DNA from: a virus
Length of the DNA: 22,884 bases
IMG/VR virus record: IMGVR_UViG_3300025849_000242
Span: 1 to 22,884 of that record
Strand: one strand, 5' to 3'
The notes below the pieces were generated by a model. It was given only the letters and a program-made list of their open reading frames with translations. It was not told where the DNA came from and ran no database searches. The stretch's first letter is position 1; the number at the start of each line of letters is the position of its first letter. This document shows positions 2,927 through 15,806 of this stretch, one piece after another. Position numbers and translations under genes: made by a program.

Positions 2927-3469
2927 TTACCAATCGATCATTACAATATTACCATTCCAGCTCATTATGTTGTCTGGTTTAAAATCTAATGATAAATCTA
3001 AATCACCTATTCCGGTAGTTTGTACTTGTTGTTCTAATGCTCTTATAAAATTACCTAATTTTTGGTCAACATATCTGCCACCATCATTATTAAAATAATC
3101 AAATATACTAGTTTCAACTCCTTGACTTCTTGCATATTCTTTATATTTTTCATAAAATTGTGTTATTTTATGTAACATATCAGATGATAACTTACTTGCT
3201 CGTTTCATTATATACATGGTTTTATTATCAGAATAAACAACAGGTATAAATGCATTATATTCATTATACCGTCCTACTATAACATCTGCTACTGCAATTT
3301 CATCTGGTTCTGATGTTATTTTCATTAATAAATCTTCACCATTTATACTATAAACTTTTCCATTATCTCCAGAATTAAAAAATTGAAATTCTTTATTTCG
3401 TATTTTAGATAATAATCTTTCTGATTCTTGTTCAGAAATTTCTGTTAATATAGTTTTTAATTTTATCAT
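2927..3469 (-). CDS. Short kinase-fold protein with capsid-targeting-like N-terminus
   Basis: A 180-aa protein with protein-kinase/aminoglycoside-phosphotransferase landmarks: a glycine-loop segment NSGDNGKVYSI (32-42), a lysine in LLMKIT (K50) that fits the ATP-binding position, a hinge-like segment YIMKRAS (86-92), a catalytic loop LDFKPDNIM (D162, N167, exactly five apart as in kinases) and a metal-binding Asp in MIDW (D179). The protein ends one residue after this Asp, so the usual C-terminal helical part is missing. The first 11 residues, MIKLKTILTEI, resemble a T4 capsid-targeting peptide with a gp21-like cleavage motif (LTE). It starts 2 nt after the adhesin stop codon and lies directly before the endonuclease gene. 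Kinase fold is well supported; activity, substrate and packaging are inference. Confidence 0.7.
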   Translation of the reverse strand: MIKLKTILTEISEQESERLLSKIRNKEFQFFNSGDNGKVYSINGEDLLMKITSEPDEIAVADVIVGRYNEYNAFIPVVYSDNKTMYIMKRASKLSSDMLHKITQFYEKYKEYARSQGVETSIFDYFNNDGGRYVDQKLGNFIRALEQQVQTTGIGDLDLSLDFKPDNIMSWNGNIVMIDW

Positions 3470-3471
3470 AT

Positions 3472-5121
3472 TTAATCAAATTCATTATCATCTACTGTAC
3501 TTGCAAATTGATCTTGATCTAAATCTACACGTACTAAAAAATTCATATCAATATTATTTCTATTTTTAACTGGATTAGCTAATTTACCAATTGCTAATAA
3601 TTCAGCATGTTGATTATATAATCCTATAGTTGTTAAATATGGTTCAAATGTACTAGAAGTCATATGACTTAAATATGTTTGATTATCATCTTTTAATGCT
3701 GAATAATTTGTTGTTAAATTAAAATCTCCTTGTTCTACCTTACATAACGTTGCAAATTCAAATACATTAATAGTACTTTTATAACTAGCAGAATATGCAT
3801 ATGACAATGTATCTTCATAACGGTAATCTGGACTAGTTACTACAAATAATCCATTATTATGAAATGCATTACCAACACGATTAGTTTGTAATAATGTACC
3901 TCCTTCTGTACGATCTGCTAATGAATTAATATGATCCTGAGTTAAAGCTTTATTATATATTCTAACTTCATCTAAATAACCATGAAAGAAATTTAGTTGT
4001 TGTAAAAAAGGATTATTTTCTTGATATGATCCAAATTTTATTGGGTCTGTATTATTTATAGCAGCTGATGATGTTTTAAAATTATTAAGTTTTTCTAAAC
4101 TAAGTAATGTATTCGAAGTTATTGAATTATGTAATGAAGAGTTAATATACATCTCCATAGTACTACCAGTTTTTTGACAAACAACATGAGTCCAACTACT
4201 AGATACAAATGCTGATGATGTAATTTCATTTTTTAAAGACTCTTTACCAGAAATTGAAAAAACTAATTGATTACTTCCACTCAATTCAATTTTAAATGGA
4301 TATTGTTCACTAACATTATTTTTTACTTTTCCAATTATTAATTCATTTGCTGTTGATGTATTTGATCCACTATATAAATAAAAAGAAAGTGCATAATCAT
4401 GGTCTCTATCAAAATATGCATCATATTGAGTAGTTTCCATATATCCAGATCCAGAAAAATATGCAGAATATCCAATTGATTTTTTATCACCATTTGACGT
4501 AGTTACTCCATTTGTAAATATAACATTTGAAGATGTTACATATTTAGTAATTCTATTTGTATCAAAATATTCATTGAATCCTTCATAAAATATTTCATCG
4601 CCAGGAAATGAACTTGTAACAATTCCAGAATCAATAATATTCTCATATTTATCAGAATGTAAATTAAACGATCCACTATAAATAAAAGAACCAGGTTTAA
4701 TTGTCAATCCCATTTGTGTTTGAGGAACACTAAATACTGATGCTGATTGGTATAATATTTTTGTAGATTTATCTAACGGAGTCATTAATCCATGATTTTT
4801 ATATGCATCATTTTTATACTTATAAAATAAATGATTAATTGAATAATATATATTAAACGCATATGAATCATTGTCAGGATTTTTTCTAAAAGCTGAATCT
4901 AAATTAGAATTAAAAAAATATGCTTCATTAGTAAAAGGATTAATTTCAGGAATAGATCCAACATAATTTGCATATAATGCTAAATGATTATCAGATGTAC
5001 TACCTGATCTCATTGTAAATGATTTATTAATTTGTATAGGAGTTATTTTAGTATCAGATCTGTCAACACGTTTAAATACTTGAGGATGTGTTCCGTTTTT
5101 ATCTTTAATAATGTTTGGCAT
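3472..5121 (-). CDS. Adhesin-like tail/virion protein with LamG domain and shared C-terminal module
   Basis: A 549-aa protein with no signal peptide or membrane segment. Residues ~210-405 form a LamG/concanavalin-A-like domain: YSAYFSGSGYMETTQYDAYF at the start, SSSWTHVVCQKTGSTMEMYI in the middle, and the diagnostic GYLDEVRIYNKALTQDHINS near the end. Such domains bind glycans, so a role in host recognition is likely. Residues ~450-535 (FEFATLCKVEQGDFNL, then YLTTIGLYNQHAELLAIGKL) match the C-terminus of the next upstream gene (5178-6551), which suggests a common assembly or attachment module. The last residues are acidic. The gene is preceded by a GC-capped hairpin and a promoter-like motif, so it may be expressed separately from the block before it; it is followed after 2 nt by the kinase-fold gene. 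Receptor binding is an inference from the domain type. Confidence 0.75.
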   Translation of the reverse strand: MPNIIKDKNGTHPQVFKRVDRSDTKITPIQINKSFTMRSGSTSDNHLALYANYVGSIPEINPFTNEAYFFNSNLDSAFRKNPDNDSYAFNIYYSINHLFYKYKNDAYKNHGLMTPLDKSTKILYQSASVFSVPQTQMGLTIKPGSFIYSGSFNLHSDKYENIIDSGIVTSSFPGDEIFYEGFNEYFDTNRITKYVTSSNVIFTNGVTTSNGDKKSIGYSAYFSGSGYMETTQYDAYFDRDHDYALSFYLYSGSNTSTANELIIGKVKNNVSEQYPFKIELSGSNQLVFSISGKESLKNEITSSAFVSSSWTHVVCQKTGSTMEMYINSSLHNSITSNTLLSLEKLNNFKTSSAAINNTDPIKFGSYQENNPFLQQLNFFHGYLDEVRIYNKALTQDHINSLADRTEGGTLLQTNRVGNAFHNNGLFVVTSPDYRYEDTLSYAYSASYKSTINVFEFATLCKVEQGDFNLTTNYSALKDDNQTYLSHMTSSTFEPYLTTIGLYNQHAELLAIGKLANPVKNRNNIDMNFLVRVDLDQDQFASTVDDNEFD

Positions 5122-13925: not shown

Positions 13926-15806
13926 TTAAACACTTACTACCCTACCTTTTATATCTTTATTTAAAAATTTAATTTCAAATATTGCTGGATCTAATGGAGG
14001 ATAAATAATTCCTTGTTTTGTAGCACTTTCTAAATCATATACATTTCCAGAATAATTATCAGCTGTATTAAATAGGTTTTTAAAGTCTAAATCTACAACA
14101 GATTGAACGCCATCTATATTTCCTAATATATTCATTACGTCTGACATAATAATTGGTTGATTAATCTGCCATTTGTCAATTGAAAAATACTCTTTTAATT
14201 CATTAATACAAAGTAATAAAACTTCGTTACTATTATAATTTGAGTTAACTGTTATTTCAAATTCAATTCCAATATTAACAATAAATGCATTTAATATATT
14301 AACTGCATCAGTTAATATTCTATAATAATCTAAATAATTTTTTAAATTAGTTTTAACTGCGTCATTTAATGATGTTAAATTATTATTATTATCAACCCCT
14401 AATACATATAAATTCATAGCTAATGGATTTGGAATTCTTGTTGTTTCCATTTGATTTTGTGATAATTGATCGTCTGGAACTATGTAAGCTTTTGCAACAC
14501 TTCCAAATTTAGCTGGCATTGAATAACATCTAATAATATAATCATCTTTAGTAACTAATCTATTTTGAGTAGCAAAATTAGATAATGCATTATTTTTTAT
14601 ATCTTGCAATGTATCTGCAGATTTACCACCTCTAGCAGGAGATTCATTAGTAGTGCTTATACTAGATTTAACAAAATTAACCATGGCTGCACTAGTTGTA
14701 GCATTAGGATCATCATCAAATTCTATATTTTCAACTTTTGTTAATACAGAAGAAGCCACATTATCTGAAACACCGCCTCCTACTGTATATGTAATAGTTA
14801 ATGTAGTATTTGCTGGTGCTTGTCCGTATGCTCTAGTATATAAAAAATTAGATGGATCTATATCAACATCTATAGGTCTACGAAATGCAGCAATACCATT
14901 TCCAACGTTATCTGGATTTGGAATAATTTCTTCATCATTATTATCTGATATACCTGCTCCAAATTGAATTTCCATTTTTTTATCACTTCGTAATCTAGTA
15001 ATAAATCTTTTAGATGTTTTTAATAATTTTAATAAACTAGGACTAGAACTTCTATATTGAGCAAAGTCAGGATCATTTTCTAATAAGTTAGGTACATCTC
15101 TAAATATTGTATCTTGTGCTAAATATTCAACATGATACCAATTATCACCATCTGACTCTTGACATGATATAATATCAATAACATTAGTTTCATCTAAAAC
15201 TATTTTATCATACTGTTTTGGCGAAGTAAATGTAAAAGTAGCAGTTTTAACATCTCCAGATACTACCTTTGCTTTTTTCTTTAATAAATAATATGTAGGC
15301 TGATTTGTTACTTCATCACTTTCGTAAACAGTAACTTCTGTTGTATTAAATGATGAGCTAAAAGTAAAATCTATAGAATCTAATGTTCTAAATTCTGCAG
15401 CTCCACCATCTTCTTTTACTTGCATTCCAGGTTTAATTGATAATGCATAAGAAAAGTCTGGAGAATTATTAACTCCACTACCAGTTGATGGAACTAATTG
15501 AAATACATTTAAATCTGTATATGCTGGTATAGCATTTTTTGATTTATATCCTAATGATCGAGCTAAATCATATATATTTTTTCTTTCAGATGCTTGTTCT
15601 AATAACGACTCTTTAAGATTATTATCTGCATAGTAACTTAAAACATCTCCTACGTATGCTGACATTTCCATAAATAACATACCGGGTGATGATTCATTAA
15701 AATCATTATAATCATTAGGAAAATATTGTTTTGTAAAATCTATTAAATTTTTACGAAATTGACCAAAGTCTTTTCCTAAATATGATACGTCTTTTGTTAC
15801 CTCCAT
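13926..15806 (-). CDS. 6: Baseplate wedge protein, gp6-like (baseplate J family)
   Basis: A 626-aa protein, close to T4 gp6 (660 aa). The N-terminal block is diagnostic of gp6/baseplate-J proteins: GKDFGQFRKNLIDFTKQYFP, DFNESSPGMLFMEMSAYVGD, VLSYYADNNLKESLLEQASE and NIYDLARSLGYKSKNAIPAY (residues ~12-115). The middle includes MEIQFGAGISDN and the gpJ-type stretch ARGGKSADTLQDIKNNA followed by NRLVTKDDYIIRCYSMP (~395-435). The C-terminus carries MNILGNIDGVQSVVDLDFKN. gp6 dimers form the ring of wedge vertices that surrounds the hub and triggers sheath contraction. The gene follows gp25 after 8 nt with a GGAAA ribosome site, the same gp25-gp6 order as in many contractile tails. Confidence 0.93.
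   Translation of the reverse strand: MEVTKDVSYLGKDFGQFRKNLIDFTKQYFPNDYNDFNESSPGMLFMEMSAYVGDVLSYYADNNLKESLLEQASERKNIYDLARSLGYKSKNAIPAYTDLNVFQLVPSTGSGVNNSPDFSYALSIKPGMQVKEDGGAAEFRTLDSIDFTFSSSFNTTEVTVYESDEVTNQPTYYLLKKKAKVVSGDVKTATFTFTSPKQYDKIVLDETNVIDIISCQESDGDNWYHVEYLAQDTIFRDVPNLLENDPDFAQYRSSSPSLLKLLKTSKRFITRLRSDKKMEIQFGAGISDNNDEEIIPNPDNVGNGIAAFRRPIDVDIDPSNFLYTRAYGQAPANTTLTITYTVGGGVSDNVASSVLTKVENIEFDDDPNATTSAAMVNFVKSSISTTNESPARGGKSADTLQDIKNNALSNFATQNRLVTKDDYIIRCYSMPAKFGSVAKAYIVPDDQLSQNQMETTRIPNPLAMNLYVLGVDNNNNLTSLNDAVKTNLKNYLDYYRILTDAVNILNAFIVNIGIEFEITVNSNYNSNEVLLLCINELKEYFSIDKWQINQPIIMSDVMNILGNIDGVQSVVDLDFKNLFNTADNYSGNVYDLESATKQGIIYPPLDPAIFEIKFLNKDIKGRVVSV

Follow-up and report, generated by a model that had tools for sequence, protein, structure and literature searches.

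A shared ten-residue leader on a truncated kinase-like protein and on many unrelated proteins of T4-related phages: a probable head-packaging label

Proteins that a phage injects along with its DNA have host defences and metabolism as their first targets. Except in a few model phages, such proteins are indistinguishable from the products of other unknown genes. The internal proteins of phage T4 have a leader in common and are otherwise different (PMC3012670), and once injected they counter host defences (PMC9391042). Targeting of T4 IPIII requires no more than its first 10 residues, with residues 4 and 7 directing it and residues 8 and 10 directing processing; the prohead protease gp21 cleaves after L/I-X-E (PMC9026906). 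In phage P1, an N-terminal capsid-targeting signal carries the defence protein DarB into the head (PMC9024508). Here we analyse a gene on a 22.9 kb viral fragment (the window, meaning the whole stretch of DNA studied) whose product, which we call the mini-kinase, begins with a comparable leader and continues as a truncated kinase-like body. The source virus is an aquatic T4-related phage of the T4 superfamily; the window's baseplate protein (13926-15806) shows 51% identity to that of Microcystis phage Mel-JY01 and 42% to that of Flavobacterium phage immuto, and T4-type head genes are present in both phages.

From its sequence and by analogy with T4, we consider it quite likely that the mini-kinase is a protein tagged with a capsid-targeting sequence (CTS), packaged in the head of a T4-superfamily phage, trimmed after E10 and injected. 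It would be, as far as we know, the first CTS-tagged kinase-like cargo. The idea goes back to an earlier note on this DNA, which described an open reading frame (ORF) at 2927-3469 that starts MIKLKTILTEI and carries a glycine loop, K50, D162, N167 and D179; all of these are found where the note placed them. The note also likened the N-terminus to T4 head leaders, and the likeness holds at all four positions mapped as critical in IPIII (4, 7, 8 and 10), where the window leader has L4, I7, L8 and E10. The sequence-based checks bear out the note's interpretation throughout, with two corrections, on catalysis and on gene context.

How does the leader compare with those already described? Like T4 IPII, IPIII and Alt, the proteins reported here have a 10-residue N-terminal leader that ends in L/I-x-E and is conserved while the bodies differ, and, as in T4, a gp21-type protease is encoded by the same phage (in near-complete relatives). 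The sequences are not the same, MIKLKxILxE here and MKTYQEFIAE in T4. By eye, the closest T4 leader is the gp24 propeptide MAKINELLRE, sharing K3, L7, L8 and E10; unlike a delivered enzyme, gp24 is a capsid vertex protein. The P1 Dar signal is longer than the leader here, and the Dar proteins have no common consensus. As read from the sequences, what is new relative to the T4 internal-protein system is the different leader, a cargo that is much more numerous and diverse, and a body that is kinase-like but truncated, in uncultured aquatic phages related to Mel-JY01 and immuto.

The leader is not confined to the mini-kinase. In a 173 kb relative (G001, the record of L033) it starts unrelated genes at 103, 788, 1252, 1948, 2502, 4943 and 97328; the mini-kinase relative at 28554 has the same leader with a TTG start, and shorter or shifted variants occur at 3566 and 146797. 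Besides the kinase, MIKL/MIRL leaders open 9, 6 and 5 ORFs with unrelated bodies in G001, G004 and G007, respectively, leaving out a G001 ORF that begins MIKLIIFDLDG. Among the 179 ORFs of G001, 40 N-terminal pairs share at least 6 of 10 residues, compared with at most 3 in 200 column shuffles; the figures for G004 are 16 and at most 2. A pattern scan of viral contig DNA yielded at least 87 leader ORFs of at least 60 residues. With those of full-length relatives added, at least 109 leader proteins fall into 70 body families when residues from 13 on are clustered by single-linkage BLAST; for this sample 70 is an upper estimate, because such clustering can miss distant homology. The consensus across families is MIKL(K)xILxE, and comparison with the leaders of other proteins, which the note had proposed, reveals a portable module. 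In 257 Gb of cellular genomes a slightly narrower pattern (residue 6 Asp/Asn only) matched just 21 stretches, many of them in trivially short ORFs; the majority of the long ORFs are on contigs that carry homologues of G001 genes. The shuffles and this rarity led us to reject a common chance N-terminus. We found no earlier description of the MIKLKxILxE leader in the open-access literature, our coverage of which is incomplete.

What is conserved appears to be a peptide with a cleavage site at its end. The 87 leader genes have 74 distinct leader DNA sequences, and information content is 1.5 bits per base inside the leader and 0.15-0.23 on both flanks. Most leader positions were preset by the search pattern, so their conservation in the 87-gene set is not evidence; the pattern left the flanks and residues 9 and 11 open. 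Conservation stops after E10, and the X of L-x-E is unconstrained. In a scan with residues 9 and 10 free, 67 of 79 leader ORFs had E10, and 74 of the same 79 had a hydrophobic residue (L, I, V, M or F) followed by x-E near residues 9-12. Several exceptions are indels that move L-x-E but keep it, as in ILLTE, ILINE and ILNNKILNE. We rejected two other accounts: the scan with E10 free excludes an artefact of the search pattern, and a DNA-level element is excluded by synonymous variation of the leader DNA and unconserved upstream DNA. That LTE fits the (L/I)XE rule, as the note had claimed, is borne out by a conserved leader that ends exactly after E10 of its L-x-E site.

The phages that carry the leader also encode the predicted means of removing it. 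An S77 prohead protease (PF03420) is present in G001, in G002 and in all four leader-bearing contigs longer than 140 kb; the gp21-type protease that the note hoped to find elsewhere in the genome thus exists in near-complete relatives, where it retains the GEL(D/N)HP and SSRG motifs of T4 gp21. In all nine relatives compared, the major capsid protein (MCP) has (V/I/L)-x-E↓(A/S) near residue 57 of the G001 protein, corresponding to the T4 gp23 site LTE65↓A. Leader ORFs lie between the S77 protease and the scaffold or MCP gene (L090, L146 and L077) and between terminase and portal (L079 and L137). The note had taken the tail-gene neighbourhood of the mini-kinase as a sign of a virion protein. 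That neighbourhood is not itself evidence of packaging, and the leader ORFs inside head clusters provide a better context.

We propose the following sequence of events. Residues 1-10 would bind the prohead scaffold core and bring the protein into the prohead, as the position-by-position match to T4 suggests. The S77 protease, given its presence, the site and the context just described, would cleave after Leu-Thr-Glu10 and release the 170-residue body among the DNA. Like T4 internal proteins, the body would enter the host together with the DNA. There it would bind ATP through the glycine loop, K50 and D179 and act on a host component, most likely phosphorylating it through D162. Lacking both an activation segment and the C-lobe's C-terminal half, it would probably depend on a host partner or on a substrate that is small and specific.

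On sequence grounds the leader is best read as a general packing label of this phage group, not particular to the mini-kinase gene. Its occurrence on about 70 unrelated families may therefore mark a set of enzymes injected into hosts. We think it fairly likely that MIKLKxILxE serves a large group of aquatic T4-superfamily phages, mostly uncultured, as their capsid-targeting code and that, in metagenomes, it lists an injected arsenal of at least 70 families, most of them unannotated, including the virus-only mini-kinase and NUDIX, Zeta-toxin-like, RimK-like, exonuclease and peptidase domains. If this is true, a ten-residue label readable from sequence turns the finding of injected proteins into a search. 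Because the cultured phages immuto and Mel-JY01 have relatives, the idea is testable; no published virion proteomics of either phage was found in the literature covered.

The mini-kinase family itself is well conserved. Scans of viral contigs found 49 relatives by single-sequence patterns and at least 182 by family alignment, the 80 best of the latter being retained; no cellular homologue was confirmed among the 84,980 cellular species genomes scanned. In an alignment of 31 sequences with 52-81% identity to the window protein, L4, E10, G34, D35, N36, G37, Y40, K50, E54, E57, D162, F163, N167, D179 and W180 are invariant and L8 almost so. Every full-length relative inspected retains E10 and the kinase motifs and terminates at the Asp-Trp of the DFG-equivalent position. 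The ratio of non-synonymous to synonymous substitution rates (dN/dS), about 0.06-0.27 in six pairs, makes purifying selection on the gene evident. A divergent homologue, detected through its leader and kinase motifs, is immuto gp093 (L072:42367-42807, annotated hypothetical), which is flanked by tail genes on one side and by the gene for DNA primase on the other. It starts MISIYNILKEV (leader MISIYNILKE), ends IIDV and in the alignment keeps the glycine loop, Lys, Asn and last Asp.

The body behind the leader very probably contains a kinase-like core. The glycine loop, beta-3 Lys, helix-C Glu, D-x-x-x-x-N catalytic loop and Asp at the DFG position all stand in canonical order and are invariant in the 31 relatives. 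The assignment rests on these motifs and on an AlphaFold model because single-sequence searches with the protein against Pfam, PHROGs, PDB sequences and isolated phage genomes gave nothing significant. The AlphaFold2 model, built from 31 sequences, has a predicted local distance difference test score (pLDDT) of 83, below 50 for residues 1-10, and a predicted template modelling score (pTM) of 0.77. Foldseek matched it to kinase-like folds nearly exclusively, with probabilities of 0.9-1.0 for the top matches (APH enzymes, MTR kinase, Cdc7, MEK1, RIO1 and TkArkI, as well as SAICAR synthetase, a more distant fold), and two models built from different alignments both gave overwhelmingly kinase-like matches. 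The best PDB matches, APH(2'')-IIa and MTR kinase (aminoglycoside/choline/methylthioribose kinase-like fold) and the RIO kinases, extend over the N-lobe and catalytic loop, and the final I-D-W of the mini-kinase resembles an APH-type motif. Compared with these enzymes, the mini-kinase is without the activation segment and the remaining C-lobe; identity is about 10-17% and the template modelling (TM) score is below 0.5. Small kinase-like proteins of phages RaK2 and CBB in BFVD are similar in size and predicted fold (TM 0.53-0.56, about 16% identity). OspG (4q5h, 169 residues in the entry), a small injected minimal effector kinase, is a weak structural match for which homology is not established and the delivery system differs. 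OspG does without the usual activation segment and requires a host partner.

The note's kinase-fold claim holds for the motifs, is probable for the fold, and is weakened in what it implied about catalysis. The activation segment and helices F onwards are missing, and catalytic activity is not assured because everything beyond the DFG-equivalent Asp is gone; from the sequence we put the chance of an active enzyme slightly above even. The natural end at this Asp raises the question of whether so minimal a portion of a kinase still functions.

Several observations weigh against a packaged and injected kinase. There is no protease in the window, because the fragment is only 22.9 kb, and the head cluster lies outside it. 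A few leader ORFs are without a clean L-x-E. One leader protein, L119, has M23 peptidase and tail-lysozyme domains and could be a tail protein, which weakens a reading confined to the head. Judged by its sequence, the mini-kinase is a truncated kinase relative, not a complete kinase domain. A profile search of PDB sequences yields chance-level matches only, so that no sequence profile reaches a known kinase, and global TM-scores against the PDB are low (about 0.35-0.47, all below 0.5). In immuto gp093 the catalytic Asp is absent from the alignment, apparently replaced.

Do these points favour another explanation? The leader might target the head and be cleaved, as we propose, with a body that is a pseudokinase or ATP-binding decoy (or an AMP transferase) that binds or blocks a host protein. 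A model for this is T4 IPI, which blocks a restriction enzyme. The truncation of all inspected relatives directly after the DFG-equivalent Asp and the motif set of immuto gp093 speak for such a body; the invariance of D162, N167, K50 and D179 in 31 relatives down to 52% identity exceeds the needs of a pure binder, and we regard a decoy as possible rather than probable. That the protein is unrelated to kinases and resembles them by chance would agree with the empty Pfam and PDB sequence searches, and is very improbable given the ordered, invariant motifs and the kinase-like matches of both models.

Two further alternatives concern the leader, and we judge both improbable. It might be a tag for the tail or baseplate or for phage assembly in general, making the protein a tail component or assembly factor; in both the window and G001, tail-region genes immediately precede the mini-kinase gene, and L119 has its tail-lysozyme domain. 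Such a tag does not account for leader ORFs within head clusters beside the S77 protease or for an L-x-E that fits the prohead protease rule, and NUDIX, Zeta-toxin-like, RimK-like and exonuclease cargo would be odd for tail parts. Alternatively, the leader might have no packaging role and serve translation, expression or stability, and the kinase would then act inside the infected cell that produces it. Initiation or stability could account for a shared N-terminus taken alone, and the gene is under ordinary purifying selection. Against this stand conservation at the peptide and not the DNA level that stops at Glu10, indels that shift yet keep L-x-E, and the co-occurrence of leader and S77 protease.

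The cargo is diverse. Leader proteins with recognizable domains include a Zeta-toxin-like P-loop protein (L076), a RimK-like ATP-grasp protein (L116), a NUDIX protein (L147) and an RNase_T-type exonuclease (L086); others have OmpA-like domains or are a basic DUF5872 protein. By eye only, we noted a HELEH zincin motif in G004:7152, ADP-ribosyltransferase-like YHFT/YHGT starts in L148, L082 and L321, and an HD motif in L082. Mel-JY01 has two leader proteins, with MIKLKSLLQE and MIKLMSLVTE, of the same body family as L148. These two proteins (L194:10577-11227 and L194:12357-13019) have ISDRVWH(L/V)T starts and are possibly ADP-ribosyltransferase-like; a Pfam search gave no match for the first.

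Coordinates of the mini-kinase gene and its features are listed in Table 1.

Table 1. Features of the mini-kinase gene, in window coordinates
Feature	Position	Strand	Remarks
CTS-tagged mini-kinase gene (putative)	2927..3469	-	ATG start, 180 aa, MIKLKTILTEISEQ...DFKPDNIMSWNGNIVMIDW
Putative capsid-targeting leader MIKLKTILTE, codons 1-10	3440..3469	-	common to 70 body families; conservation ends after E10; pLDDT <50
Predicted leader cut, codon 10/11 boundary	3440/3439	-	L-x-E site, MIKLKTILTE↓I
Glycine-rich loop G34-D-N-G-K-V-Y40	3350..3370	-	G34, D35, N36, G37, Y40 invariant; model strands 28-34, 37-42
K50, beta-3 lysine	3320..3322	-	invariant in 31 relatives
E54-E57, helix C region	3299..3310	-	E54, E57 invariant; model helix 55-64
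Catalytic-loop motif D162-F-K-P-D-N167	2969..2986	-	D162, F163, N167 invariant
D179-W180, DFG-equivalent Asp, stop codon immediately after	2930..2935	-	C-terminus of every full-length relative inspected

A second N-terminal motif, MRRFGTKNLxE, occurs after the leader or alone in several unrelated proteins (L105, L103, L112, L119, L285 and L057) and may represent a second leader, or an extended one, that has an L-x-E itself. Leader proteins occur in viral contigs L073-L152, in G001:C1:103-6148 and in G004:C1:5876-19112, and most are unannotated. Some (L319, L321, L322 and L324) are on contigs binned with Flavobacteriales/Flavobacteriaceae genomes, a hint that this phage group has Bacteroidota as hosts.

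The mini-kinase gene starts 2 bases past the stop codon of the upstream tail-region gene. Directly downstream, at 2437-2910, is a T7 endonuclease I-like Holliday junction resolvase (PF05367, E 2.8e-34), in an order identical to that of G001. Further on, at 2-1309 and cut by the window end, we read by eye a fused Mre11/Rad50-type (T4 gp47-gp46) protein whose phosphoesterase-like start precedes a Walker A motif. Its counterpart in G001 (C1:30700-33795), by the same by-eye reading, is a single 1031-aa ORF.
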